Source of the DNA: Methanolinea sp.
Lineage (GTDB): Archaea > Halobacteriota > Methanomicrobia > Methanomicrobiales > Methanospirillaceae
Reading direction: 5' to 3'
Length of the DNA: 64,000 nt
NCBI GenBank assembly: GCA_029907345.1
Contig: JARYMB010000003.1
Span: forward strand, 1-64,000
In this document: positions 7,626 through 63,126 of the stretch, in pieces
Numbering within the stretch: the first letter of the stretch is position 1
How the letters are laid out: the number at the start of each line of letters is the position of its first letter
Translations under genes and position numbers: made by a program
Notes under the pieces: model-generated
What the model was told of the DNA's origin: nothing
Databases searched by the model: none
What the model saw: only the letters and a program-made list of their open reading frames with translations

Positions 7626-9403
7626 CTCTTTCCCTCCGCCCTGCTCTCCTTCCTGATCGCCCCCGCCGGACAGATCTGGGCGCAGACTCCACAACCACTG
7701 CAGAGATCGGTGATGAATGCCTTATCATCCCTCTTCTCGATGGCCGGGCAGCCAAACCCAATACAGACGCCGCAGGCGGTGCAGGTCGCCGGGTCGACCT
7801 CGAAGCGTCCCCTGCGGAGGTTGGCCCTCCGCGCCATGATCACGCAGGGCTGCCGGGCAATCACCACCTTCACGCCGGGCTGGTCCTTTGCGGCCCGGAG
7901 GGTGGCCATGAGAGAGACGAGGTCATACGGATCCACGGTCTCGACCCATGATACCCCGCAAGCCCTGCATATCGCCTCGAGCGACACCTGGGGTGACGGC
8001 TCTCCGCAGGCCGTGACCCCGGAAGCCGGGTTGGGCTGGTGACCGGTCATGGCCGTGATGCGGTTGTCCAGGATGACCAGGATCATCCGGGCACCATTAT
8101 ACACTGCGTTGAGGAGACCGGGTATCCCGGAATGGAGAAACGTCGAGTCCCCGATAGTTGCAACAATGTCCCTTGCGTCTCCCGAATGGGCAATACCGCT
8201 TGCAACGGTAACCGCCGCGCCCATGCATATGGTCGTGTCAACGGCACCAAGCTGGAGGCCAAGAGTATAGCACCCTATATCGCTTGGATATATACCATCG
8301 CGGAACACCCGGCGCATTGTATAGAAAACCGGGCGGTGCATGCAACCGGCGCAGAGTATCGGCGGCCGCGGCGGGAGATCTGCCACGGCGCTTGTGACAG
8401 GATATTCTTCCCGGGGTGCGATCCCAAAGGATTTCATGATTCCTGCTACCGATGCCGTGGAGAGCTCCCCCTCGTATGGAACGATCCCGTTCTTCTTGCC
8501 GGATACCGGGATTGTTCCGGCAACCTGCCGGACCGCCTCCTCGACGACCGGGTGGAGTTCCTCGACGACAAGAACTTTCTCATGGCGCGATATCTGGGCT
8601 GCCAGCCATTCTTCGTCAATCGGATATGCGCCGATCTTGATAAACGAGACATCGTCAGGGAGGATCTCCTGGACGTAGGCGGCTGCAATGCCGCTTGCAA
8701 CGACTGCCCGGCGACCCCTGATCACGGCGGTGTTGTATCCCTTTTCGACCAGTGCCTTTTTGAGAGCAGGCTGCTTCTCGTTCAACTTTTTATGAAGGAT
8801 TCGGGTGTGGGCCGGGATGACGACGTACTGCCGGGGATCCTTGTGAAACTCTCCCTTCCGCGTATTCCTGACCGGCTCTCCCGTCACAGTGTCGCCCTTG
8901 GAATGGCATATGCGGGTCGTGGGCCGGAATATGACGGGGAGCGAAAACTGCTCCGAGAGTGCAAAGGCATCCCTGACCATGTCATGTGCCTCCTGGATGG
9001 TCGAGGGATCGAGGCAGGGAAGGCGGGAAAAAAGGGCATAACAACGGCTGTCCTGCTCGTTCTGTGAACTGTGGGCAAAGGGGTCGTCGGCGCTCATGAT
9101 CACGAGTCCGCCTGTCACACCCGTATAGGCACTCGTCATGAGGGGATCGGCTGCAACGTTCAGACCGACGTGTTTCATGGTGCACAATGCACGCAGACCA
9201 CACCATGCTGCAGAAAGGGCATTTTCAAACGCGACCTTTTCGTTGACAGACCACTCGATGTAATAGCCGCGACCGGGAACAGCCCTGAGGATATCGACAA
9301 CCTCCGAGGACGGTGTACCCGGGTATCCTGTCACAAAATCGACGGGTGCCTCCAGGCACCCATGGGCAATTGCTTCGTTGCCAAGCAGGTACTGGGTTTT
9401 CAT
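7622..9403 (-). CDS. iorA: Indolepyruvate:ferredoxin oxidoreductase, alpha subunit
   Basis: IorA is the large subunit of the same enzyme. Order of parts: pyrimidine domain with TGYPGTPSSEVVDIL (about 24-38); a middle region; a thiamine-diphosphate domain with IGDSTFLHSGIPGLLNAVYN and ILDN (about 420-450); and two C-terminal [4Fe-4S] ferredoxin motifs, CTACGVCIGFGCP and CSGCGVCAQICP (about 545-585). Length is 593 residues, normal for the family. It overlaps iorB (ATGA). On the minus strand a TATA-like ACTATATTAAAT lies at about 9448-9459, 45 bases upstream of the start. Likely role: aromatic amino acid synthesis from aryl acetates, or their degradation. Confidence 0.96.
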   Translation of the reverse strand: MKTQYLLGNEAIAHGCLEAPVDFVTGYPGTPSSEVVDILRAVPGRGYYIEWSVNEKVAFENALSAAWCGLRALCTMKHVGLNVAADPLMTSAYTGVTGGLVIMSADDPFAHSSQNEQDSRCYALFSRLPCLDPSTIQEAHDMVRDAFALSEQFSLPVIFRPTTRICHSKGDTVTGEPVRNTRKGEFHKDPRQYVVIPAHTRILHKKLNEKQPALKKALVEKGYNTAVIRGRRAVVASGIAAAYVQEILPDDVSFIKIGAYPIDEEWLAAQISRHEKVLVVEELHPVVEEAVRQVAGTIPVSGKKNGIVPYEGELSTASVAGIMKSFGIAPREEYPVTSAVADLPPRPPILCAGCMHRPVFYTMRRVFRDGIYPSDIGCYTLGLQLGAVDTTICMGAAVTVASGIAHSGDARDIVATIGDSTFLHSGIPGLLNAVYNGARMILVILDNRITAMTGHQPNPASGVTACGEPSPQVSLEAICRACGVSWVETVDPYDLVSLMATLRAAKDQPGVKVVIARQPCVIMARRANLRRGRFEVDPATCTACGVCIGFGCPAIEKRDDKAFITDLCSGCGVCAQICPAGAIRKESRAEGKR

Positions 9404-9497
9404 GAGTATTCACCAGGGATTCGCACACGTACATTCTGGCAGAACACATTTAATATAGTGGTTTTTGTAGTCCCCGGGCAGACCGGAATTCAAAACC

Positions 9498-9505
9498 TAT
9501 AAAAA
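9498..9505 (+). promoter_or_regulatory. TATA box for tRNA-Ile
   Basis: TATAAAAA, preceded by CC, lies 33-40 bases before the 5' end of mature tRNA-Ile. This leaves room for a pre-tRNA leader of about ten bases. Confidence 0.6.
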
Positions 9506-9537
9506 CCAGCGGGGATTAAGTAGTACGGCAACCCCGG

Positions 9538-9611
9538 GGGCCCGTAGCATAGCCAGGTGGTGCGCCCGGCTGATAACCGGGAGGTCATGTGTTCGAATCA
9601 CATCGGGCCCA
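9538..9611 (+). tRNA. tRNA-Ile (anticodon GAT)
   Basis: The acceptor stem GGGCCCG pairs with CGGGCCC, discriminator A is at 9611, the anticodon stem CCCGG/CCGGG holds loop CTGATAA, and the T loop is TTCGAAT. It reads ATC/ATT. CCA is not encoded. The acceptor and anticodon stems are identical to those of the CAT-anticodon tRNA at 23746-23820. Confidence 0.95.
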
Positions 9612-9644
9612 TTTCCCATCTTCTTATTATCCATCCCGTGTTAC

Positions 9645-10112
9645 ATGCATTGTATGAAAAGAGACCTGCTCATCGTCCTTGTGCTCGGACTCTTCGCCTG
9701 CGTCGCACTCTATTTCATTGTCGATATCTATGCCAGCCTGATTGCAGCAGTCCTCGTGATTGCACTGGCAATGTCCCTCTTCATCATGCAGGACAGCGTG
9801 ATGAAACCGAACGTCTTTGTGTTCATCGAGGAGAATGCAAAGGGAATCAGGGTGCGGAACAAGGGTAATGCAAAGGCACTGTCGGTAAAGGTATCGCTTG
9901 AACCCCAGGATCTCCATTTCGACCTTCCGGTTCTCGGGGAAGATGCAGTCGCAACGTTTCCCGTTCCTCCCGTGACTGATAAGATAAAAGTGAATGTCAG
10001 TTACAGGAACGAAGAGGGGAATACCTTTGCAAAGACCTTTTTCCTCAAACCGGGGGACATCGAGGACGAAGATCTTCTCAAACCCCTCTTTCCCCTCTTC
10101 GGGTGGAAATAA
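9645..10112 (+). CDS. Unknown small membrane protein
   Basis: I do not recognise this 155-residue protein. Two closely spaced hydrophobic segments (about 7-25 and 28-48) form a membrane hairpin. The rest is a soluble beta-rich domain, with VFVFIEENAKGIRVRNKG and later KVNVSYRNEEG, that looks like a small immunoglobulin-like or C2-like sandwich. A second ATG at 9654 (MKRDLL) is an equally good start; neither has a clear ribosome-binding site. It lies just behind tRNA-Ile and converges with the next gene, 12 bases apart. The codon pattern and clean hydrophobic segments support a real gene. Confidence 0.6.
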   Translation: MHCMKRDLLIVLVLGLFACVALYFIVDIYASLIAAVLVIALAMSLFIMQDSVMKPNVFVFIEENAKGIRVRNKGNAKALSVKVSLEPQDLHFDLPVLGEDAVATFPVPPVTDKIKVNVSYRNEEGNTFAKTFFLKPGDIEDEDLLKPLFPLFGWK

Positions 10113-49084: not shown

Positions 49085-50752
49085 ATGATGCTCTCCCGGC
49101 TTTATTCCACGATTGAGAGTGCACTGCAGGAGGTATGTGGCCAGAAAGACGTTCATCTGTCCGACGGCGGGAGCCATGCAGACCTCTCCAGCACCGTTTC
49201 GTTTTCCCTTGCAAAGAAGCTCCGCCGATCCCCGGCAGAAATTGCACGGGAGATGGCAGAGACGCTCTCCCGCCGCGAGGATCTTGCGGGCGTCAGGGTC
49301 GAGGCACTCGGACCCTACCTTAACTTCCACATCGGTCCGGAACTCCTCGAAACGGCGATTATCGAGGCCACGCAGCCCGGGTACGGGTCATTCCCGGCGC
49401 GGGAGGAACGCGTCGTCCTCGAACACACGAGTGCCAATCCCAACGGGCCGCTCCACGTGGGCCACATCCGGAACACGATCATCGGGGACACGCTCGCCCG
49501 GTGCCTCCGGAAAGCAGGCTATCCCCTCGAGGTCCAGTATTACGTCAATGACATGGGCCGCCAGATCGCGATCGTGGTCTGGGGGTTCCAAAACATCCCG
49601 GATACCCCGGTGCCGGGCGAGAAGGGGGATCACCACGTCGCCCGGATCTACATCGCTGCGAACAGGGAACTTGAAAAGAGGCCTGATGCCGTTGCCGAGG
49701 TGGACCTCCTGATGCAGCGTGTCGAGTCCGGTGACCCGCAGACCGTCCGGGAGTTCCGGTCAGCCGTTACTGAGTGCCTGGACGGGTTTTTGGTGACGCT
49801 CGCCCGCCTGGGCGCAAAGCACGACAGGTTCGTCTGGGAAAGCGACTTTATCCGGAACGGCGATACGCAAAGGGTCCTTTCCAAGGTATCGCACATGGAC
49901 GAATGCCACGAGGACGGCAGGCTCTGGCTCGACCTCTCCGCGTTTGGTTTCGAGAAGGAGTACGTGCTGCGCAGGAGTGACGGGACGTCAGTATACGCGG
50001 CACGGGACCTCGCGTACCACATCTGGAAGGCGCGGAACTTCGACCGTGTCATCGATGTCCTGGGTGCGGACCACAAGCTGATCGGTGCACAGCTCGTGAC
50101 CACGCTCCGCCTCCTCGGGGAACGCCCGCCCGAGATCGTCCACTTCGAGTTCGTCTCCCTCCCGGAGGGGTCGATGAGTACCAGGGCAGGCAAGTTCGTC
50201 TCAGCCGACGAACTCCTGGACGAGGTCACCCGCAGGGCCTACGAAGAGGTGACGTCCCGGAGGCCTGAACTCCCCGGGGCACAGAGGCACGAGATAGCAC
50301 GATCCGTCGCCCTTGCTGCGGTCCGGTACGACATCGTGAAGATATCCCCTGACAAGAGCACGGTCTTTGACTGGAAGGAGGCCCTTGACTTCGAGCGGCA
50401 GAGCGGCCCCTACATCCAGTACGCCCACGCCCGGGCATGCAGCATCCTCGAAAAGGCCGGGTCGTTCGGGACTGCCTATGCACCGGAAGACCCCCACGAA
50501 CACGCCCTCGTCCGCCACATCACCCGGTTTCCGCTCGTGATGGAAAACGTCGTGCGTGACCTCAAACCACACCTCCTTGCTGCGTATGCCCGGGAACTTG
50601 CAGACCTCTTCAACACGTTCTACCACTTCGTCCCGGTCTTGAAGAGCGGGGGTGTCCTCCGGAACTCCCGCCTCACGCTCGTTTTGGCAACCCGGAACAC
50701 ACTCGCGGAGGCGTTGCAGGCACTTGGCATCGACCCACTCACAACCATGTGA
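49085..50752 (+). CDS. argS: Arginyl-tRNA synthetase
   Basis: A class I synthetase of 555 residues charging tRNA-Arg. The HIGH region is NPNGPLHVGHIRNTIIGDTLAR split at about 116-137; the KMSK-like loop is SMSTRAGKFV; the N-terminal Arg-specific Add domain and C-terminal DALR anticodon-binding domain (GPYIQYAHARACSILEKAG and beyond) are complete. It starts one base after the aRF1 stop. Its 3' end overlaps the presumed start of taw1. Confidence 0.96.
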   Translation: MMLSRLYSTIESALQEVCGQKDVHLSDGGSHADLSSTVSFSLAKKLRRSPAEIAREMAETLSRREDLAGVRVEALGPYLNFHIGPELLETAIIEATQPGYGSFPAREERVVLEHTSANPNGPLHVGHIRNTIIGDTLARCLRKAGYPLEVQYYVNDMGRQIAIVVWGFQNIPDTPVPGEKGDHHVARIYIAANRELEKRPDAVAEVDLLMQRVESGDPQTVREFRSAVTECLDGFLVTLARLGAKHDRFVWESDFIRNGDTQRVLSKVSHMDECHEDGRLWLDLSAFGFEKEYVLRRSDGTSVYAARDLAYHIWKARNFDRVIDVLGADHKLIGAQLVTTLRLLGERPPEIVHFEFVSLPEGSMSTRAGKFVSADELLDEVTRRAYEEVTSRRPELPGAQRHEIARSVALAAVRYDIVKISPDKSTVFDWKEALDFERQSGPYIQYAHARACSILEKAGSFGTAYAPEDPHEHALVRHITRFPLVMENVVRDLKPHLLAAYARELADLFNTFYHFVPVLKSGGVLRNSRLTLVLATRNTLAEALQALGIDPLTTM

Positions 50753-51626
50753 TGCCCTGCGGCGCCAGGGTTACCAGTTCTTCAGAGATGGGTCTTCCGC
50801 TGCCCTCAAGCCATGCCTCTGGTGCAAGAAGGCTTTGAAGGGGCAGGAGAAATGTTACAAGCACCAGTTCTACGGGATAGAGAGCCACCGCTGTGTCCAG
50901 ATGACCCCCACCCTGCGGTGTAACCAGCGCTGCCTTTTCTGCTGGCGGTCTTTTGAACACACCTATCCCGGCGGGAGGGACTGTACCCCTGCCGAGATCT
51001 GGGAGCGCCTCCCCGCGCTCCAGAAACGGGCTCTTGCCGGGTACAAGCCGTCGCCCTACGTCACGCCGGAACGTTTCACCGAGGCCCTGGCTCCGCGCCA
51101 CGTCGCCATATCCCTCTCTGGGGAGCCGACCCTCTATCCCTCCCTGCCAGAGCTCATCGGCCTTTTTACCGAGAAGGGCCTCACAACCTTTCTCGTGAGC
51201 AACGGGACGAACCCGGACGTCCTCTCCCGGTGCAGACCCTTCCAGACGTACGTCTCGCTCACTGCACCGGACCGGCAGACATACCTTGGTCTCTGCAGGC
51301 CACAGGAGGACTTCTGGGACAGGATCCAGGAAAGCCTCCACCTCCTGGGAAAACGGAGGTCCGCGGTGCGAATTACCCTGGTGAAGGGGTACAACGACTT
51401 CAATCCGCTCTCGTATGCCCGGATGGTCCAGGACTCCGGCGCCACGTTCGTGGAGGTGAAGGGATATATGTTTCTGGGATACAGTAGAAAAAGGTTGGAA
51501 AGGGAGAACATGCCGAGTTTTGCCCACGTGAAGAAGTTTGCGGAAGAAATCGCCCGTGGTTCCGGGTACCGTTTCAGGGACGAGAACCCGGCAAGCCGCG
51601 TCGTGTGCCTGGAGCGTGAGGAATGA
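50724..51626 (+). CDS. taw1: tRNA 4-demethylwyosine synthase
   Basis: Taw1 is the radical SAM enzyme that forms the tricyclic base imG-14 at G37 of tRNA-Phe. It has [34 protein letters not shown] and the cluster motif [20 protein letters not shown], all typical. Length about 300. The start is a problem: this frame has only TTG at 50724 (GGAGG is 12 bases upstream) or GTG at 50652 near the homologous region. The ATG at 50752, overlapping the argS stop, is in another frame; one extra C in the CCC run at 50755-50757 would bring it in frame. It overlaps sepS by four bases. Confidence 0.9.
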
Positions 51627-53203
51627 GGTTTGATCCCGGAGCCTGGAAGGCGCGGTCCCGTGAACATTTCGAGAGGGCCTGGCATGAGGGCCCCGGTGTC
51701 CTGACACCGCCGCGGGCCGGTGATCGGTACCCGCGGCTCCGTTACCCGGCACCTCTCCCCCATCCCGTCTTCGATATGGTCCACCGGCTGCGCGAGACCT
51801 ACCTCCGCCTCGGGTTCGTCGAGACCTGCAATCCCATCATCGTCGAGGAGCAGGACGTGTACAGGCAGTTCGGGCCCGAAGCGAGTGCTGTCCTTGACCG
51901 GGTCTTCTACCTCGGGGGACTCGATCGCCCCAACCAGGGGATAGGGAGGGAAGAACTCGAGGGTATCGCGTCGATAACAGGAAAACCGGTCACCGCTGAC
52001 GAGGAGGCAAGGCTTCGCCGAATCCTCCAGGACTACAAGAGGTCCGCTATCGACGGGGATGACCTTATCCACGCAACCTCGGATGCCCTCGGTATCGATG
52101 ACGGCGTGACCGTCGAGATCTACGAGAAAGTCTTCTCGGCTTTCCGTGAGCTTTCCCCCCGGTCCTCCCGGTCCACGCTGCGCAGCCACATGACGAGCGG
52201 ATGGTTCCTTACCCTCTCCGCCCTCTGGGAGAGGTGCCCGCATCCCCTGAAGCTCTTTTCCGTGGACCGCTGTTTCCGGCGCGAGCAGGAGGAGGGCCCG
52301 ACCCGGCTGATGAGCTATCACTCCGCGTCCTGTGTCGTTGCGGGGGACGACGTCACCAACGAGGAGGGAAAAGCCGTTGCCGAGGCCCTCCTCTCTGCAT
52401 TTGGGTTTACGGACTTCCGGTTCCGCCCGGACGAGAAAAGGTCAAAGTACTACATGCCTGACACCCAGACCGAGGTCTATGCACGCCATCCCGTCCATGA
52501 CTGGGTCGAGGTGGCGACGTTTGGCATGTATTCGCCTTCCGCCCTTGCCGAATACGGGATCGGGATTCCCGTGATGAACCTCGGGCTCGGCGTGGAACGC
52601 CTTGCAATGATTGCAACCAATGCAAAGGATATTCGGGAAATGGTCTATCCCCAGTTCCACCCCGGTCCACTCCCGGATCTCGAGATTGCACGGGGAGTCA
52701 CAGTACGCAGCGAACCTGTCACGGTGGAGGGAAGAATCCTCTGCCAGGCAATCGCCCGGACGGCACGGGAGCATGCGGCAGAGACCGGACCATGCTCGTT
52801 CGTTGCATTCGAAGGGCAGCTTGGTGCTGCCCGGATCCGTGTTCTCGTCGAAGAGCAGGAGGAAGGGGCCAAGCTTCTCGGGCCTGCATGCGGCAACGAG
52901 GTCTTTGTTTACCAGGGGTCCATCCTCGGTGTGCCGGACACTCCCCAGTGGGCTGTTGTCCGAACCGAGGGTGTTTCCTGCGGTATCTCCTACCTGGACG
53001 CTGTCAGCATGCTTGCTGCTGCCCGGATCGAGGAAGGGGCCGCCTGCGGAAAACCGGTTCACGTCCAGGTCAAGATGGCAAAACTCCCAAGCGACGTTAA
53101 CCTGCGCATCGCCGACTACGTGATGCGGGATATCACCGACAGGAAGAAGAAAGTGGATGTCCGCGGGCCTGTTTTCTTTGCCGCGCGGTCGGAACTCATC
53201 TAG
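51623..53203 (+). CDS. sepS: O-phosphoseryl-tRNA(Cys) synthetase
   Basis: SepRS attaches O-phosphoserine to tRNA-Cys; SepCysS then converts it to Cys-tRNA. This route is characteristic of methanogens. The 526-residue class II enzyme has a PheRS-like core: [19 protein letters not shown] (about 47-65), [38 protein letters not shown] and [10 protein letters not shown]. The C-terminal RNA-binding part runs to the end. It is coupled to taw1 (ATGA). No CysRS, SepCysS or SepCysE lies in this window. Confidence 0.96.
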
Positions 53204-53245: not shown

Positions 53246-54382
53246 CTATCCGGGCGGGGGGGACGCCCTGTTTTCCTCCCGGGGCCTGGCAAGTACATTC
53301 CGGATAGCGTTGCTGTACTTTGCGACAAATGCTCCGATGATCGAGGTCACGATGACCATCGTGGCCACAGCGCTCGAGACTGCACCAGACCCCCAGAGGG
53401 CAGCGATGGCAATCGAGAATTCACCGCGGCCAATGGTATTTGCCCAAATCTCTACTCCGGAATTCCTGCTTCCATGGACGAAATGCCCGATGGCAATCCC
53501 GGACAGGTACTTGGAGAACACTGCAACGATACTCACACCTGCAATCGCCGCCACCGAGACTCCTTCGGCGAAGATATCGGTTGTTATCCCGAAGAAGACG
53601 AAGAAGACCACAAGGAAGACATCCTTGAAAGGCCTCGAGTGGACCTCGAAGGAGACGGGGTCGATCGTCCCGAGGACGGTCCCAAACGCGATCACCATGA
53701 AGGACTCGGGGATGCCCCACGCGCTGGCCAGGGCTGCGATGCCGAGCACCGCGGAGAACGTCAGGAGCACGGGGAGTTCGTCGTCCCGTTTCAGGATCGA
53801 CGTGATGTAGTCCCTGCCCGTATGCGTGATCAGAATAAGGGCAAGCAGGAGACTCACCGTCTTTGCTAAGACGATGAGGGGGTGTTCCCCTGATGACCCG
53901 AAGAATGCGAGGACGAGGATGACAACGATATCTTCAAAGACCATGAGCCAGACAATGGTTTCTGCCTCCCTCATCAGGAGCTTCTTGTTCTCGACAAGTG
54001 ACGTGACCGCCATTGCCGTGCTGCTGATGAAAAATGCAGCGGCAATAACAAGGGCGTCTGCAAGGGAAAAGCCCAGTGCATACGCTGCCACAAACCCGAT
54101 GATGACGTTGATGTGGAGGTCCAGCAGCCCGCTCTGGGCAATGGCCCTGTGGTTGCTCCATATCCTGTCGGGCTTGATCTCGAGCCCGAGGAAGAAGAGG
54201 AGGAAGAGCAGGCCGAGATGGGTGAGGAACAGGGCGACGCCGTCCACCCCGACGAGACCAAGCCCGCTCTTCCCTATCAGGAGCCCTGCGATGATGTAGA
54301 AGGGTATCGAGGGGAGCGCCAGTTTCTTGGTGATCAGGGCGAGCACCAGGCAGACAAAGAGAGCGAGGACGACCCCTTCCAT
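53246..54382 (-). CDS. Kef-type cation/proton antiporter (CPA2 family)
   Basis: A 378-residue transporter with about twelve membrane segments. Features of CPA2: PSIPFYIIAGLLIGKSGLG at the start (about 25-43), LFFLGLEIKPDRI, a discontinuous helix with AAFFISSTAMAVTSL, and GRGEFSIAIAALWG near the end with the polar residues of the ion path. It likely exchanges K+ or Na+ for H+. The adjacent TrkA-C protein overlaps it by four bases and is probably its cytosolic gate. Confidence 0.92.
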   Translation of the reverse strand: MEGVVLALFVCLVLALITKKLALPSIPFYIIAGLLIGKSGLGLVGVDGVALFLTHLGLLFLLFFLGLEIKPDRIWSNHRAIAQSGLLDLHINVIIGFVAAYALGFSLADALVIAAAFFISSTAMAVTSLVENKKLLMREAETIVWLMVFEDIVVILVLAFFGSSGEHPLIVLAKTVSLLLALILITHTGRDYITSILKRDDELPVLLTFSAVLGIAALASAWGIPESFMVIAFGTVLGTIDPVSFEVHSRPFKDVFLVVFFVFFGITTDIFAEGVSVAAIAGVSIVAVFSKYLSGIAIGHFVHGSRNSGVEIWANTIGRGEFSIAIAALWGSGAVSSAVATMVIVTSIIGAFVAKYSNAIRNVLARPREENRASPPPG

Positions 54383-54867: not shown

Positions 54868-55184
54868 AAACACGTTTCTCCCGCGGATCTTAAAAAGAAT
54901 GAGGATATGCGGAGAACGGGCCCGGAGTCGCGCCTGCCCGGGAAGGCCCCTGCTGCACGTGCAAACGAGGGAGTGGGGACCCGGAAAAAAGGGGGAGTTG
55001 GCGGGTCCTTCCCCATCAAGGTGGCTTTTTGGAGGGTTGCAGAGGGAGGTCGTTTTCTTCCCGGCCTCCTCGATCCAGATGTCTGGCATACCTGTTTATA
55101 AACTCCTGCCGTGGAGGGTGAAAGTGTCCGGACAGCATGGCCCATCCCCCATGTATTAATGGCAGCAGCACCACACCATGGGTG
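54868..55184. other. GC-rich intergenic region with a symmetric TATA element
   Basis: No gene is supported here. The open frame upstream of the TrkA-C gene runs through it without homology. GTTTATAAAC, a perfect 10-base palindrome near 55094-55103, can act as a TATA box in either direction: toward rlmH (start near 55125) or toward a possible minus-strand RNA beginning near 55072. The stretch 54905-55070 is rich in C and G runs and could fold, but I see no box C/D, H/ACA or RNase P signature. Confidence 0.4.
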
Positions 55185-55664
55185 ATGCAGGTCCGCGTTA
55201 TCGGTGTAGGCCGGGTGAGAGAAAATTACATCCGGGAGGGGATTCGGGACTACTGTACCCGGATCATGCCCTACATGCGGGTCGAGCTGCGTGACATTCC
55301 CGATGAAAGGATACCCGAAAGGATAGGGGAGCGGGAACGGGAAGATCTCCTCGCCCGGGAGGGTGCACGGATCCTCGCTGCCACAGAGGGTGCAGCCATC
55401 CGAATCGTGTGTGCTGTCGACGGGGAACCCTGGAGCAGCGAGGAACTTGCAGCCAGGCTGAAGAAGTGGGAACTGTCCGGGCAGTCAAGGGTCGCGTTCG
55501 TGGTCGGCGGACCCCTCGGGATTGGCAGTCCGGTCCTGTCTGCCGCAACCCACGTGCTCTCCCTCTCCCGGATGACGTTCCCCCACCAGCTCGCCCGCCT
55601 CATACTCCTCGAGCAAATCTTTCGTGCATGCCGGATCAACAGCGGAGAGGCCTACCATAAATAA
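55185..55664 (+). CDS. rlmH: 23S rRNA (pseudouridine-1915-N3)-methyltransferase RlmH family
   Basis: A 159-residue SPOUT methyltransferase. The knot region is VAFVVGGPLGIGSPVL (about 106-121) followed by LSLSRMTFPHQLARLILLEQIFRACRI split at about 126-152, the RlmH signature. In bacteria it methylates pseudouridine 1915 in helix 69; archaeal relatives are assumed to act on the equivalent site. ATG 55185 fits the family start (MQVRVIGVGR), with GGGTG just before; the first ATG at 55137 is upstream of it and less likely. It converges with the radical SAM gene. Confidence 0.9.
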   Translation: MQVRVIGVGRVRENYIREGIRDYCTRIMPYMRVELRDIPDERIPERIGEREREDLLAREGARILAATEGAAIRIVCAVDGEPWSSEELAARLKKWELSGQSRVAFVVGGPLGIGSPVLSAATHVLSLSRMTFPHQLARLILLEQIFRACRINSGEAYHK

Positions 55665-55680: not shown

Positions 55681-56808
55681 TCAGGGGATTATCTCGCATC
55701 CGTTGTACCGCGTGTGGGAAAAGTCATCCCTCCTTATCAGCCCCTTCCGGATACACTCCCTGACCCGGGGGAGCACTTCGAGGAGGCAATCGTGCAGGTT
55801 CTCAACCGTCTGGCACACGAGTTTTCTCATCTGCTCGGGCCATGGCCGCATGACCTGTGAATAGAGGCATCTTCCCCCGCAGAACCAGAGAAGATGGCAT
55901 GACGAGCAGCCTGAGCCGACCGCGACACGGGGCAGGCAAAGGGGGTCGGCAGTTGCGATGTGCCCGACGTAGAACTCCTTCATCCCTGCCATGACCGGGC
56001 AGGGGCCGATGTGCCCGTCGGTCATGATGGTATAGTTGGCATGGCCCGAACCGCAGCGGAGGAGACTGGCCCGCCCATCCAGGAGATCCTGCATGGGCTG
56101 CAGGAAGGGATACCAGCGGCGGACTCCCTCCCCGGCTTCCATGCTTTCCACCCAGTCCCGGACCAGCCTCCGGATACCCGGGTTATAGCTGGTGCGGGCC
56201 CACTCGCAGAATGTTCGCATCGCGCCATACCCTGAAAAATCCGCGTCGAGCTGCCAGTGAATGGACCGGAACGGAAAGACAGGGTTTCCTGCAAGTGCCC
56301 GGACCGCCTCGCGGATGTCCGTGTCCTCCCCGACAGTCATCCGGGCGATGAGTTCCCCGCGAAAACCTCCCCGGGCAAGCTCCTGCACGTTCTCCATGAC
56401 ACGCCGGTATGTCCCCTTCCCCCGGTGCCGGTCGGTAAGCTCCTCCGTGCCGTCGAGCGAGACAAGGATGGTCTCGAACCGGTTCCGGTAGGGAGCAGGG
56501 AGACGGGAGAGGAGCACGCCGTTTGTCTGGAGCATGAACCTTTTGACAGGGGCATTGTCCATGATCTCCTCGATCAGGGCCACACGGAGCAGGGGCTCCC
56601 CCCCGTAGAACGTCAGGCAGGCCGAGGGGTCTCCCGCAAGGAAGGAGTAGAGGTCACGCAGGTCAAAAGAGAGTTCGGATGGGAGATCCCAGTCTATCTC
56701 CACGTCACGACCGCCGGACCATGGTGCATTGCCTTCAAGGACCCTGCCCCTGCAGTAACTGCAGCAGAGGTTGCAGTCATCGGTGAGGATGAGATGAAAA
56801 AAGACCAT
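55681..56808 (-). CDS. Radical SAM/SPASM enzyme, putative peptide modifier
   Basis: A 375-residue radical SAM enzyme. The cluster motif is CNLCCSYCRGR (about 12-22), then FYGGEPLLRV and MLQTNGVLLSRL. The C-terminal region is a SPASM-type domain with many cysteines: CGSGHANYTIMTDGHIGPCP, then CSSCHLLWFCGGRCLY and CQTVENLHDC. It resembles the archaeal AF1577/Mhun_1560 families, annotated as putative peptide-modifying enzymes. No precursor peptide, peptidase or exporter is adjacent. Start at ATG 56808 places the cluster near the N-terminus as in homologues. Confidence 0.85.
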   Translation of the reverse strand: MVFFHLILTDDCNLCCSYCRGRVLEGNAPWSGGRDVEIDWDLPSELSFDLRDLYSFLAGDPSACLTFYGGEPLLRVALIEEIMDNAPVKRFMLQTNGVLLSRLPAPYRNRFETILVSLDGTEELTDRHRGKGTYRRVMENVQELARGGFRGELIARMTVGEDTDIREAVRALAGNPVFPFRSIHWQLDADFSGYGAMRTFCEWARTSYNPGIRRLVRDWVESMEAGEGVRRWYPFLQPMQDLLDGRASLLRCGSGHANYTIMTDGHIGPCPVMAGMKEFYVGHIATADPLCLPRVAVGSGCSSCHLLWFCGGRCLYSQVMRPWPEQMRKLVCQTVENLHDCLLEVLPRVRECIRKGLIRRDDFSHTRYNGCEIIP

Positions 56809-56833: not shown

Positions 56834-57697
56834 TTATCGGTCCCTTCTCCGGGATACCGTGGCCGCGAGGGCAAATGCAGCAATCCCCAGCGACAGGATG
56901 GTGACAGGAGAGGCAAGGGGTGTTGCTGTCTTCCTTGGTGCAGTCGTCTGCGGCGGGACCGCCGTCTGGAGAAGTTCCGGGGAGCTCCGTGCCCTGTAGA
57001 GCGTCTCGTTGACCCGCTGCATCCCGGCTATGGCATTCTCCATCTTCGGATTGATCCGGACCGCTTCCTGGTATGCCTCGAGCGCTTCCTGGTACCGGCC
57101 GAGGTGGGAGAGGGCATCTCCCTTCGTTGTCCAGAGCTGTGCGTTGTATCGCGCCTCGTTGGGGTTGCGCCTCATCTCCCTCTCTGCAAGACGGACGACC
57201 TCGTTGTACACCTCCATTGCCTTGTCCGGCCGTCCCATCTTCTGGAGGCAGACCCCTTTTTCGTAGAGGGTGTATAAATCGTTGGCATTGATGGCAAGGG
57301 CCCGATCATACGAATCGATAGCCGCCTGGTACTGTTCCTGCGCCTGGAGCGCATCGCCCTTGTTCTTCCAGGCCACTGTATAGTAGGGGTCGATATCGAG
57401 TGCCTTCTGGAAGGACTCGACCGCGTCGGGGAACCTGCCGACCTTCATCTGTGCTATCCCTAGCCGGTTCCATATCTGGCTGCTGTAGGGATCAAGCTCG
57501 ATTGCCTCCCTGTAGAGGTCGAGAGCTTCCGTATACTGCCCCTGCAGCACGAGGTCATCTGCCCTTCGCATGAGGCCCTGGGCAATCTCGGCCGGGGTGT
57601 CCGCAAGCACGGGGGCTGCCAGTATGACGAGGACTGTCGCTGCCGCTAAAAAGATCCCGATCCTGCCCCCACCCCATGCGGTATGTCCACTCCTCAT
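56834..57697 (-). CDS. Secreted TPR-repeat protein with C-terminal anchor
   Basis: A 287-residue exported protein. The signal peptide ends near LAAPVLADTPA. Five to six TPR units follow: YTEALDLYREAIELDPYSSQ, WNRLGIAQMKVGRFPDAVES, WKNKGDALQAQEQYQAAIDS and so on to about residue 235. A Thr/Pro-rich linker then leads to a C-terminal membrane segment with an RRRDR end, which may be a sorting or anchoring signal. The start at 57697 is chosen because a TATA box (GTTTTATATAGT, minus strand, 57727-57738) lies 36 bases upstream, beyond which the earlier ATG at 57739 falls. Confidence 0.85.
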   Translation of the reverse strand: MRSGHTAWGGGRIGIFLAAATVLVILAAPVLADTPAEIAQGLMRRADDLVLQGQYTEALDLYREAIELDPYSSQIWNRLGIAQMKVGRFPDAVESFQKALDIDPYYTVAWKNKGDALQAQEQYQAAIDSYDRALAINANDLYTLYEKGVCLQKMGRPDKAMEVYNEVVRLAEREMRRNPNEARYNAQLWTTKGDALSHLGRYQEALEAYQEAVRINPKMENAIAGMQRVNETLYRARSSPELLQTAVPPQTTAPRKTATPLASPVTILSLGIAAFALAATVSRRRDR

Positions 57698-57726
57698 ATC
57701 ACTGCAGTATTCATTGATGCCCGGCA

Positions 57727-57738
57727 CTATATAAAACA
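57727..57738 (-). promoter_or_regulatory. TATA box of the TPR gene
   Basis: GTTTTATATAGT on the minus strand is centred about 26 bases before a probable transcript start near 57707, ten bases before the chosen ATG. Confidence 0.65.
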
Positions 57739-57995
57739 TAATTTGACTGCCGGGTTCATTTCCGCTGCCGCGTTTCCTTCCATGGGCTCTCCCAAAAACC
57801 CTGCATTTCGCAGTTTTTCCTCAAAGGTGCCATTGTGCACAGGACAGTCCCGGGACATCAGGGATTTTGGGCATATCCCTATCCAGATTCCTCATAAGCC
57901 GTTCCTATGGAAGGGTGTCCCAGGAACTTGGAAAAAACACCGTGCCCTTACAAAACCGGACCCTCTTCCGTGACCGCGAGAGATCTTTGGAGTAA

Positions 57996-58310: not shown

Positions 58311-59198
58311 CTATCCTTCCTGGTATCCCCTCATTTCGAGCTCGATCTTTTCGAGCGCTGCGATCCTCTTTTCCAGGGGCGGGTGGGTGGAGAAGAGCTC
58401 CATCAGCGTGGCTCCCGAGAGTGCGGGGATGATGAAGAAGGCATTTGCACTCTCGACCATTCTCTTCTGTTCCGGGGGAATGTAGTCCATCCTGCCGCTG
58501 ATCTTCTCGAGTGCAGAGATGAGGTCTCCCGGACGCCCGGTTATGTAGGCACTTCCACGGTCTGCAGAAAACTCCCTGTACCGGGAGAGGGCCATGATCA
58601 GGAGCTGTGATACGAAGTAAACGATGACAGCCACGATACCCGCGATGATCCAGGGGTTGTCATCCCTGCGCGAGAACATGCTCGCAAAGAGGAAGTTGTT
58701 CATGATCAGCGCAGCGATCATCGCCACGAAACTTGCCACCGTCATGGTCAGGACATCCCTGTTTTTCACGTGGGACAGCTCGTGTGCAATGACTGCCTCG
58801 AGCTCCCGGGGGGAAAGGAGCCTCATGATGGAATCGGTGACTGCCACAACGGCATGGCGCGGACTCCTCCCCGTGGCAAACGCGTTCGGAACAGGAGACT
58901 GCATGATCGCAACCCTGGGCATGGGTAACCCGGCTTCGGTTGCCAGCTTCTCGACCATGGCAAAGAGCTGGGGATTCTCGTCCCTCTCGATCACCCTTGC
59001 CCGCGTGCTCCAGAGCACAAGCTTGTCCGAGAAGAAATACTGGACGAACGCCATCCCGAAGACGAGTATGACCAGGAACGGAAGTCCCACGCCGAGCATG
59101 GAGAGTACTGCGAGGAAGACCAGGTACACCAGGAACAGGAGGAACATGGTCAGCCAGATCCTCACGGTGAGTCCGAGATCGCGTTTCCATACTTTCAT
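58311..59198 (-). CDS. htpX: HtpX-family M48 membrane metalloprotease
   Basis: A 295-residue zinc protease that degrades damaged membrane proteins. Two membrane segments near the N-terminus (about 11-29 and 33-51); the zinc motif HELSHVKNRDVL (about 136-147) with HExxH; two more hydrophobic spans; then the third zinc ligand in SRYREFSADRGSAYITG. PNAFATGRSP and THPPLEKRIAALEK are typical. The ATG at 59198 lies about 27 bases after a TATA box (TTTATAGATT), so the mRNA is leaderless; the longer upstream frame is not coding. Confidence 0.94.
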   Translation of the reverse strand: MKVWKRDLGLTVRIWLTMFLLFLVYLVFLAVLSMLGVGLPFLVILVFGMAFVQYFFSDKLVLWSTRARVIERDENPQLFAMVEKLATEAGLPMPRVAIMQSPVPNAFATGRSPRHAVVAVTDSIMRLLSPRELEAVIAHELSHVKNRDVLTMTVASFVAMIAALIMNNFLFASMFSRRDDNPWIIAGIVAVIVYFVSQLLIMALSRYREFSADRGSAYITGRPGDLISALEKISGRMDYIPPEQKRMVESANAFFIIPALSGATLMELFSTHPPLEKRIAALEKIELEMRGYQEG

Positions 59199-59220
59199 AA
59201 GTAACTTATTTGCCCTGCAA

Positions 59221-59230
59221 AATCTATAAA
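59221..59230 (-). promoter_or_regulatory. TATA box of htpX
   Basis: TTTATAGATT on the minus strand sits about 26 bases before the htpX ATG, consistent with a leaderless transcript. Confidence 0.65.
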
Positions 59231-59316
59231 TATTCTTCCAGCGGCATTCTGACCCCCCAAAAACCCGGGTTTCCCGGACGGATGAGTGCCAAGACCGTTC
59301 AAGGAAAGACGACACC

Positions 59317-60081
59317 ATGGAGCTTGACGAGATAACTATCAGCAGGGCCATCGTGGCATCCCAGCTCGAGAAATTCCTCGATTTCATGGAGATGGACGTG
59401 GCCGTGGTCGGAGCCGGGCCATCGGGACTCACTGCAGCAGCCCTCCTTGCGGAAAGGGGACACCGCGTCGGCCTCATCGAGAAGAAACTCTCTGTCGGAG
59501 GCGGTATGTGGGGAGGTGGAATGATGTTTCCCCGCATCGTTGTCCAGGAGGAGGCCCGGCGGCTCCTCGACCGTTTCGCAATCAGGTATACACCCTACCG
59601 GGAGGGTTACTACGTCTCCTCCTCTGTCGAGGCCGTGTCAAAGCTTACGGCTGCTGCATGCGACGCGGGTGTCGAGTTCTTCACGCTCTTTTCCGTCGAG
59701 GACGTGATGATCCACGGCGACGGGAGGCTCTCGGGCCTCGTCCTGAACTGGACGCCCGTGGAGATGGCCGGGCTCCACATCGACCCCCTTACCATGGGCT
59801 GCCGGGTTGCCGTGGATGCAACCGGTCACGACGCCGTTCTCGCACGCCTCGTCGAGAGGAAGGGAGGGGAGATCCGGGTGAAGGGAGAGAGTTTCATGTG
59901 GGCACACCGGGCAGAGAACGAGATCCTCTCTCACACGCGCGAGATCTTTCCCGGGCTGGTTGCCTGTGGCATGGCCGCCAATGCAATCGCCGGGGAACAC
60001 CGGATGGGACCGGTCTTTGGCGGTATGCTCCTCTCAGGGGAACGGGCAGCAGCACTTGCGGATTCGCTCCTTCGGACGTGA
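59317..60081 (+). CDS. thi4: Thi4-family thiazole synthase (sulfide-dependent archaeal type)
   Basis: Archaeal Thi4 makes the ADP-thiazole part of thiamin from NAD, glycine and sulfide; a related enzyme makes ribulose 1,5-bisphosphate. The 254-residue protein has the NAD site DVAVVGAGPSGLTAAALLAE (about 27-46), EKKLSVGGGMWGGGMMFPR (about 55-73) and GMAANAIAGEHRMGPVFGGM near the end. Where yeast Thi4 has its sulfur-donating Cys, this one reads AGLHIDPL with His, as in catalytic, sulfide-using archaeal forms. Confidence 0.93.
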   Translation: MELDEITISRAIVASQLEKFLDFMEMDVAVVGAGPSGLTAAALLAERGHRVGLIEKKLSVGGGMWGGGMMFPRIVVQEEARRLLDRFAIRYTPYREGYYVSSSVEAVSKLTAAACDAGVEFFTLFSVEDVMIHGDGRLSGLVLNWTPVEMAGLHIDPLTMGCRVAVDATGHDAVLARLVERKGGEIRVKGESFMWAHRAENEILSHTREIFPGLVACGMAANAIAGEHRMGPVFGGMLLSGERAAALADSLLRT

Positions 60082-61015: not shown

Positions 61016-61558
61016 CTACCCGCGGGCGACGAGGAAGTCCCGGAGCCGCCTGAGAGCCCGGGCCCGGTGCGAGACCCTGTTCTTCTCCTCCGGTGACATC
61101 TCGGCAAGCGTGCGCCCGCGCCACTCGAAGATCGGATCGTATCCGAACCCTCCTGTTCCCCGGGGCGCGACAACCCTTCCCTGTATCCTGCCGGAAAAGA
61201 CGCGGATCTGCTCGCCGTCGGCATAGGCAACAGCTGTCTCGAAAAAGGCCTTCCGGTCAGAGACCCCCTCCATCAGGCGCAGGATTCCCTCGTTTCCGAT
61301 CGTTTCCTGCACGAATGCCGCATACGGCCCCGGAAATCCGCGGAGTGCATGGATGTAAAACCCGGTATCGTCACAGATCAGCGGCCTTCCGAGGACGTGG
61401 TAGGCATATTCCGCCTTCTTTTCCGCGATCGTCCTCACGCTGTCGTCCCGAACCTCGGGGCACTCGAGTGCAACATGCGTCACCTCTGCCACCCCCTCGA
61501 AGAAGAGGCCGATCTCGCGTGCCTTGTGGGGGTTGTTCGTGACAACCGTGATCTTCAC
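61016..61558 (-). CDS. XTP/dITP diphosphatase (Ham1/RdgB family)
   Basis: This housekeeping enzyme removes inosine, xanthosine and related triphosphates from the nucleotide pool. The 180-residue protein has VTNNPHKAREIGLFF (about 6-20), CDDTGFYIHALRGFPGPYAA (about 70-89) and GTGGFGYDPIFEW, followed by MSPEEKNRVSHRARAL. Translation starts at GTG 61558, which overlaps the stop of the Kae1-Bud32 gene and has GGAGGGG upstream. Confidence 0.95.
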   Translation of the reverse strand: MKITVVTNNPHKAREIGLFFEGVAEVTHVALECPEVRDDSVRTIAEKKAEYAYHVLGRPLICDDTGFYIHALRGFPGPYAAFVQETIGNEGILRLMEGVSDRKAFFETAVAYADGEQIRVFSGRIQGRVVAPRGTGGFGYDPIFEWRGRTLAEMSPEEKNRVSHRARALRRLRDFLVARG

Positions 61559-63126
61559 AGGTACCGCCCCCTCCGCTCGATCTCCTGTTCCCGCACAATG
61601 ACTTCGTCGGCGAACGCACATTCTTCCCTGTAACCCCTCAGGAACGATCCCTTCAGTGCAGGGTGGTTGTCCGTCGTGCTCTCGAGCGTCTGGAAGAGGA
61701 CATGGAGATCAACGCCGCGTGCTTCGAGTTCTCCCGAAACCTGGGCGAGCCCGAAATCGATGAGGAAGCACCGCCCTTCCCTGCAGATCATGTTGCTCGT
61801 CGTCAGGTCGCCATGGACGATCCCTGCTGAATGGAGCCTCCCCACCGTTTTTCCAGCAAGGTACATGTTTTCGCCGGAGAGCTGGTCCCTGACGAGGGTG
61901 CCTGCAACCCTTTCCATCACGATCGTGTCTGCCGTGATGTCCCGGATGATGGGTGTCGGTACTCCGTGTCTCCTGGCCATCGAGATGAGGCGTGCCTCTG
62001 CCCTCGTCCGTTCCGAAATGAGGCGCATGTCGAGTGAAGGCTGGCGGTAGGCCTTTTTCTGGCGCTGCTTTTCCACAACGTCGGGACCGACCCTGACGAT
62101 GGCCTCTGCACCCCGGGCAACACCCGGTTCCCCGGTCCTCCGCGCTCCCTCTTCCGCCCCGCCGTCCCACCACGTGACCTCGACCTGGTCCGCCCGGAAC
62201 ACGGGATTTGCCCGGGTCTGTTCGGGAGGCATTGCCAGTCCCTTGCCGAGCATGAGCCTCCCGGTATAGGCAATCATCGCGCCGTTGTCTCCCATGAACT
62301 TCCTGTCAGGCACGTGGAGAACTGCACCCCTCTCGCTGCACATCGTGGCAAGCATCTCCTGCAGGCGGCGGTTTGCTCCGACACCCCCGACGAGCAGGAC
62401 CTCGTCCTTGCCTGCATGGGCAAGCGCCCTCTCGGTCACCTCCACGCACATCGCAAACGCGGTCTCCTGGAGGCTGTTGCAGACGTCCTCGAGGGGGGCT
62501 GGATGGTCCTTTGCAGCGCTCACCAACCCCGAGAAGGCAAGATCCATGCCCTTGACCGTGTAGGGCAGCTCCACGTACCCGCCTTTCAGGGCGAGCCGTT
62601 CGACCTCGGGACCACCGGGATGGGGAAGACCCCTGCTCCGTGCAAACTTGTCCAGCGCATTTCCAAGGCCGATATCCAGGGTCTCCCCGAATATCCTGTA
62701 ACGCCGGTTGAGGTACCCGATCACCTGCGTGTTTGCACCGCTGGCATACAGGACGATCGGGTCGCGGGCACCGGTGGCAAACCGGCCAATCTCCACGTGG
62801 GCGACACAGTGATTCACTCCCACGAGCGGGACATCGAGGGCAATTGCCAGCGCCCGGGCAGCAGTTGCAACGGTCCGCAGGCAGGGGCCAAGGCCGGGAC
62901 CCATGGAGAACGCAACTCCCGCAATCCGCCCCGAAGGGGGCATAACGCGGGCAATGACCTCCTTCATGAAGGTGGCATGGTGCTGCGCAGCCTCCCGGGG
63001 ATGGATCCCCCCATGAGGGGGCATGTAGGGCCTTGAGTAAAGGGAGACGAGGTCTTTGTCAAAAAGAGCGGCGGAGAGGTTCCAGGCTGTCCCTTCGATC
63101 CCCAGGACCGGGCCGATATCTGGCAT
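61555..63126 (-). CDS. Kae1-Bud32 fusion, tRNA t6A synthesis
   Basis: Bifunctional KEOPS protein of 523 residues. The N-terminal Kae1 part (to about 325) transfers the threonylcarbamoyl group to A37 of tRNA; it has the metal-binding NHCVAHVEIGRF, LYASGANTQVIGY and VGGVGANRRLQEML. The C-terminal Bud32 part is a small kinase/ATPase with GAEAIV, VMERVAGTLVRDQL, VHGDLTTSNMI and FLIDFGLAQ. The fusion is known in methanogens. It overlaps the ITPase gene (GTGA). Other KEOPS subunits are not in this window. Confidence 0.96.
   Translation of the reverse strand: MPDIGPVLGIEGTAWNLSAALFDKDLVSLYSRPYMPPHGGIHPREAAQHHATFMKEVIARVMPPSGRIAGVAFSMGPGLGPCLRTVATAARALAIALDVPLVGVNHCVAHVEIGRFATGARDPIVLYASGANTQVIGYLNRRYRIFGETLDIGLGNALDKFARSRGLPHPGGPEVERLALKGGYVELPYTVKGMDLAFSGLVSAAKDHPAPLEDVCNSLQETAFAMCVEVTERALAHAGKDEVLLVGGVGANRRLQEMLATMCSERGAVLHVPDRKFMGDNGAMIAYTGRLMLGKGLAMPPEQTRANPVFRADQVEVTWWDGGAEEGARRTGEPGVARGAEAIVRVGPDVVEKQRQKKAYRQPSLDMRLISERTRAEARLISMARRHGVPTPIIRDITADTIVMERVAGTLVRDQLSGENMYLAGKTVGRLHSAGIVHGDLTTSNMICREGRCFLIDFGLAQVSGELEARGVDLHVLFQTLESTTDNHPALKGSFLRGYREECAFADEVIVREQEIERRGRYL

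Follow-up and report, generated by a model that had tools for sequence, protein, structure and literature searches.

A stand-alone TIGR04084 radical SAM/SPASM protein from Methanolinea with a conserved C-terminal tail

SPASM enzymes are usually taken as a sign of peptide natural products, and the gene examined here raises the question of what such an enzyme modifies when it stands alone. It lies on a 64,000-nucleotide stretch of DNA (the window) from Methanolinea sp. (assembly GCA_029907345.1, contig JARYMB010000003.1, positions 1 to 64,000), where its open reading frame runs on the minus strand from an ATG at 56808 to a TGA at 55681-55683. A preliminary description had read it as an orphan enzyme belonging to an undescribed modified-peptide system, with a substrate either encoded elsewhere or supplied by a larger protein, possibly the adjacent TPR protein. 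The features of the gene and its surroundings are listed in Table 1. The window also holds another radical SAM enzyme, the 4-demethylwyosine synthase TYW1 (50652-51626), directly before the O-phosphoserine--tRNA ligase SepS (51623-53203), and a fused Kae1-Bud32 protein (61555-63126), an arrangement common in archaea.

Table 1 Features of the radical SAM gene and its neighbours in the window
Feature	Coordinates	Strand	Basis and remarks
TIGR04084-family radical SAM/SPASM protein, 375 aa	55681..56808	-	NCBIfam 263.7 bits; Pfam PF04055; AlphaFold2 pLDDT 88.6
CxxxCxxC radical SAM [4Fe-4S] site (C12, C16, C19)	56752..56775	-	Sequence; 119/119 intact homologues
H184-W185-Q186, barrel strand 6	56251..56259	-	Family-specific, 119/119; model strand E182-188
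SPASM first half, C252-x12-G265-x4-C270	55999..56055	-	Both Cys 119/119; aligned to 5wgg
SPASM C301-x2-C304-x5-C310-x3-C314	55867..55908	-	C301 118/119, other three 119/119
C332, predicted last AuxII ligand	55813..55815	-	Least conserved Cys, 102/119
Conserved C-terminal tail N-G-C-E-I-I-P + stop (residues 369-375)	55681..55704	-	E372 and P375-COOH 119/119
Secreted TPR protein, upstream	56834..57739	-	Pfam TPR; judged outside the system
RlmH rRNA methyltransferase, convergent	55137..55664	+	NCBIfam/Pfam; judged outside the system
HtpX protease	58311-59537		Near the radical SAM gene; NCBIfam/Pfam; not of RiPP type
Cation/proton antiporter	53246-54382		Near the radical SAM gene; NCBIfam/Pfam; not of RiPP type

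Judged by its sequence, the protein is a member of the catalogued family TIGR04084 (rSAM_AF0577, the AF0577 family) and not a new kind of enzyme, so that the earlier term "undescribed" does not hold. The NCBIfam match scores 263.7 bits where the cut-off is 225 and joins residues 7-375 to positions 2-347 of the 347-position model, and the Radical_SAM domain was recognised by Pfam (PF04055, E 2.6e-11). The full CxxxCxxC site and the cysteine-rich, SPASM-like C-terminus noted previously are both borne out, as the protein carries the pattern C-x12-G-x4-C ... C-x2-C-x5-C-x3-C ... C with all seven cysteines in place (252, 270, 301, 304, 310, 314 and 332). A literature search found no publication on TIGR04084, and AF0577 returned only matches that were unrelated by title; these families are said to have been described in one earlier paper. 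The family is catalogued, but no characterisation of it could be found.

The orphan status of the enzyme holds well beyond the window. We clustered the ORFs flanking 119 intact radical SAM loci from two archaeal phyla by all-against-all BLAST, using a simple gene caller that may miss very small genes elsewhere but not in the sequence directly next to the window gene. No companion gene was shared across clades at these loci, apart from families of a generic kind (ABC ATPases, for instance) that vary in distance and orientation. Nor was there a small ORF conserved across clades, the feature sought among orthologue neighbourhoods as a sign of a precursor; those small ORFs that are conserved are confined to particular clades and resemble ordinary genes (by reading, for example a ferredoxin and an acylphosphatase-like protein) or antisense artefacts. 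Members of TIGR04084 are lone genes. Within the window itself, only 25 bases separate the radical SAM gene from the TPR gene and 16 bases lie between the end of rlmH and its stop codon, so a precursor gene cannot fit into either immediate flank. The earlier statement that no precursor, protease or transporter is visible nearby was accurate for the precursor; a protease (HtpX) and an antiporter do lie close by, neither of them of the RiPP type.

The family is widespread in the two archaeal phyla sampled. Of 247 genomes sampled from the window's phylum, 78 have a copy scoring over the cut-off, the window's own genome having one, and so do 112 of 250 from the phylum to which Ca. Bathyarchaeum belongs; within the f9 genera the presence of the gene is variable. 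Among named genomes, matches came from Methanomicrobiales (the closest being Methanolinea, at 90% identity) and Bathyarchaeota. All listed genomes of the window's own order carry the gene, with the exception of G188, whose copy (L048, about 8800-9950) is broken by two stop codons; as this genome is 99% complete, the gene may be dispensable there. Plasmid-borne sequences gave matches at only ~25% identity, several of them annotated as QHNDH maturases. The gene tree broadly follows taxonomy. One exception is formed by Bathyarchaeota copies (L166, L169, L171, L173 and L174) that cluster with those of Methanomicrobiales and of the f14 genomes instead of their own phylum, which suggests that the gene was transferred between phyla in this case.

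Residue conservation was assessed over the 119 intact homologues, whose pairwise identity falls as low as 28%. The cysteines C12, C16, C19, C252, C270, C304, C310 and C314 are invariant, and C301 is present in 118. The loss of auxiliary-cluster cysteines, which would have spoken against the earlier assignment, is confined to C301, missing from one sequence, and to C332, which is kept in 102 sequences and replaced by Asp in 14 from the Thermoproteota side (by reading, most likely L204-L211, L213-L215, L217, L240 and L258) and by Tyr or Lys in three Methanomicrobiales. AuxII coordination consequently varies across the family and may differ in the sequences with Asp. A further set of residues, R156, H184, W185, Q186, W203, Y208 and P234, is identical in all 119, and among these H184-W185-Q186, W203 and Y208 make up what on alignment is an invariant family signature. 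Such a fixed set would be unusual for an enzyme that tracks changing precursors, and it would be in keeping with one conserved substrate.

The most distinctive element is the C-terminus itself. Every one of the 119 proteins ends in the consensus [NDE]-[STG]-x-E-[IVAL]-[IVM]-P-COOH, with the stop codon directly after the proline, although the stretch just before it, residues 340-368, varies (mean top-residue frequency 0.38). At position 371, Methanomicrobiales, the f14 genomes and Bathyarchaeota have Cys throughout, and the other sequences have Thr, Val, Ile or Leu. An overlapping signal at the DNA level can be ruled out as the cause, because the tail codons vary freely among synonyms (all four for Pro and both for Glu in the 119 homologues) and selection thus acts on the protein. 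The tail was absent from nine other radical SAM-like ORFs of the same genomes (the longest ORF per locus, picked automatically). A scan of eight genomes for ends of the form E-[IV]-I-P recovered the radical SAM gene in each, along with one other convincing ORF, a UMP-kinase-like protein ending in ...GTEIIP (genome G034, L264, about 1500); it was seen in one genome and was judged a coincidence. Since the last position of the TIGR04084 model coincides with the last residue of the window protein, the tail is part of the family as curated. We found no published mention of it, and its conservation, as read from the alignment, appears to be what is new here.

AlphaFold2 predicted the fold of the window protein with a pLDDT of 88.6 and a pTM of 0.89, and that of a Bathyarchaeum homologue with values of 88.1 and 0.89; the two models agree and rest on overlapping alignments. 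In both, the tail forms a short strand (residues 373-374 in the window model and 370-371 in the Bathyarchaeum model), and a second strand ends just before the invariant proline (231-232 and 228-230, respectively). The secondary structure is most simply read as the tail strand pairing with the strand before P234, in a part of the models that was predicted with moderate confidence (the last block averages a pLDDT of 72 and 61, respectively).

Taken together, these results lead us to a reading that we hold at about an even chance: the protein is a stand-alone TIGR04084 SPASM enzyme that works in trans, and its target is a single conserved one, most probably a protein or peptide, whose gene lies elsewhere. 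One conserved target fits better than a variable RiPP precursor because the tree is broadly taxonomic, the signature is invariant and neither an RRE nor a partner gene is conserved. A substrate encoded elsewhere had been correctly allowed for in the preliminary description. In the mechanism that we propose, the CxxxCxxC cluster would split SAM to give a 5'-deoxyadenosyl radical, which would abstract hydrogen from the residue bound in the enzyme. AuxI (C252, C270 and C314, with an open site as in CteB) would then bind or oxidise the resulting radical, and AuxII (C301, C304, C310 and C332) would carry the electron away, so that the residue ends up oxidised or cross-linked. In the models the tail, E-I/V-I-P-COOH, turns back to lie next to the stretch preceding P234, where it probably helps to close or shape the substrate site.

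The main rival, which we consider unlikely but deserving of serious attention, is that the enzyme modifies a small molecule or cofactor. A precedent is the heme synthase AhbD, an archaeal SPASM/Twitch radical SAM enzyme that acts on a tetrapyrrole, iron-coproporphyrin, and is not a RiPP maturase (PMC10452713). Such a role agrees with the absence of a peptide partner from all 119 intact loci and with the lack of an RRE, and an invariant pocket with signature residues shared across phyla would suit a cofactor equally well. However, neither linkage to heme genes nor linkage to any other known cofactor or non-peptide pathway recurs around the TIGR04084 loci, so the earlier reading is not refuted from this side. 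The best relatives by fold and sequence also modify peptides or proteins, and peptide maturases make up most of the NCBIfam models to which the window protein shows partial matches. The 25 listed of the 43 matching NCBIfam families include no AhbD model.

Distinctly less probable is a RiPP maturase with a variable precursor peptide that each genome encodes at some other site. The SPASM architecture and the partial matches to peptide maturases speak for it, but those matches fall far below the respective cut-offs (PapB, 81.7 against 340 bits; SCIFF, 50.9 against 425; nif11, 67 against 518.7; NCBIfam). No RRE is fused to the window protein, whose N-terminus begins at the radical SAM domain according to Pfam and the model. 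PqqD-like domains (PF05402) were absent in eight of 12 carrier genomes, the window's own (88% complete) among them, and a separate RRE is accordingly not required. The lack of a small ORF conserved across clades at the 119 loci and flanks too short for a precursor in the window also speak against it, and an invariant signature together with mostly vertical inheritance is unlike a RiPP cluster. With no precursor, RRE or other partner conserved, "undescribed modified-peptide system" overstates the case. The description of the architecture as that used for peptides fares better, in that the nearest solved relatives act on peptides or proteins, while nothing shows a peptide system as such.

Two related proposals give the tail a more active part. 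It is doubtful that a lone SPASM enzyme makes a widely conserved archaeal modification on one ancient protein while its own conserved tail reaches into the active site, there to serve as a built-in pseudosubstrate, a cluster ligand or a self-modified segment. Less probable still is that the tail is itself what is modified or bound, in which case the C-terminus would provide the enzyme with a substrate or pseudosubstrate of its own. The glutamate and terminal proline kept in all 119 homologues beyond a variable stretch, the position of the tail next to the stretch preceding P234, shared by two models, and the missing neighbouring substrate gene are all in keeping with this. A purely structural or cluster-binding role would nevertheless explain the conservation equally, and the position of the tail is a prediction of moderate confidence.

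It is very improbable that the adjacent TPR protein is the substrate or an obligate partner, as the preliminary description had entertained. The two genes do lie on the same strand, 25 bases apart, exactly as had been described, and the adjacency is kept in eight of the 119 intact loci, all of them from the window's own family (f1). It is missing from the remaining 111, other genera of that family included, when scored as adjacency at the locus; the pairing of neighbours is local to one family. The TPR protein also bears a signal peptide, whereas the enzyme appears to be cytosolic. In its C-terminal part the TPR protein has a hydrophobic stretch and then RRRDR, which resembles a cell-surface sorting signal. 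Formylglycine formation by an anaerobic sulfatase-maturating enzyme (anSME) can be practically dismissed despite the second-best structural match to anSMEcpe, since nine of 12 carrier genomes, among them the window's own and that of a 99% complete congener, have no sulfatase domain (PF00884), which refutes sulfatase maturation as a general function, and 119 of 120 homologues have proline (P271) after the second SPASM cysteine, where anSME aligns an Asp that we take to be its catalytic base.

The reading we prefer, a lone enzyme with one conserved target, has wider implications. Conservation of this kind speaks for one function maintained across both archaeal phyla, and the target, once found, would reveal a basic archaeal modification and not another antibiotic. 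The conserved C-terminus offers a concrete handle for mutagenesis and structural work.

Comparison with known systems finds the closest solved structures among enzymes that act on peptides and proteins. The top Foldseek matches of the model were CteB (5why, E 3.7e-13) followed by anSMEcpe (4k36-4k39), and a profile search agreed. PapB, a ranthipeptide maturase (NF047865), is the second-best NCBIfam model (E 5e-23, residues 5-315); it differs in its score, noted above, and in the lack of a precursor gene at the window locus. The SCIFF thioether maturase CteB (5why, 5wgg) is the best match by sequence and fold (TM 0.66), and its AuxI spacing, C-x17-C, is that of C252-x17-C270 in the window protein. 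The AuxI cluster of CteB is held by three cysteines and keeps a site open, and in some maturases a site of this type can bind substrate (PMC10452713). CteB differs in having an N-terminal extension without counterpart here (it aligns from about residue 101), in sharing only about 21% identity, and in its partner, the SCIFF peptide, for which there is no gene near the window gene. The size of anSMEcpe is similar to that of the window protein, it likewise lacks the N-terminal extension, and it acts on a protein substrate (TM 0.67). With CteB and anSMEcpe as the closest structures, a protein substrate is favoured for the TIGR04084 enzymes.
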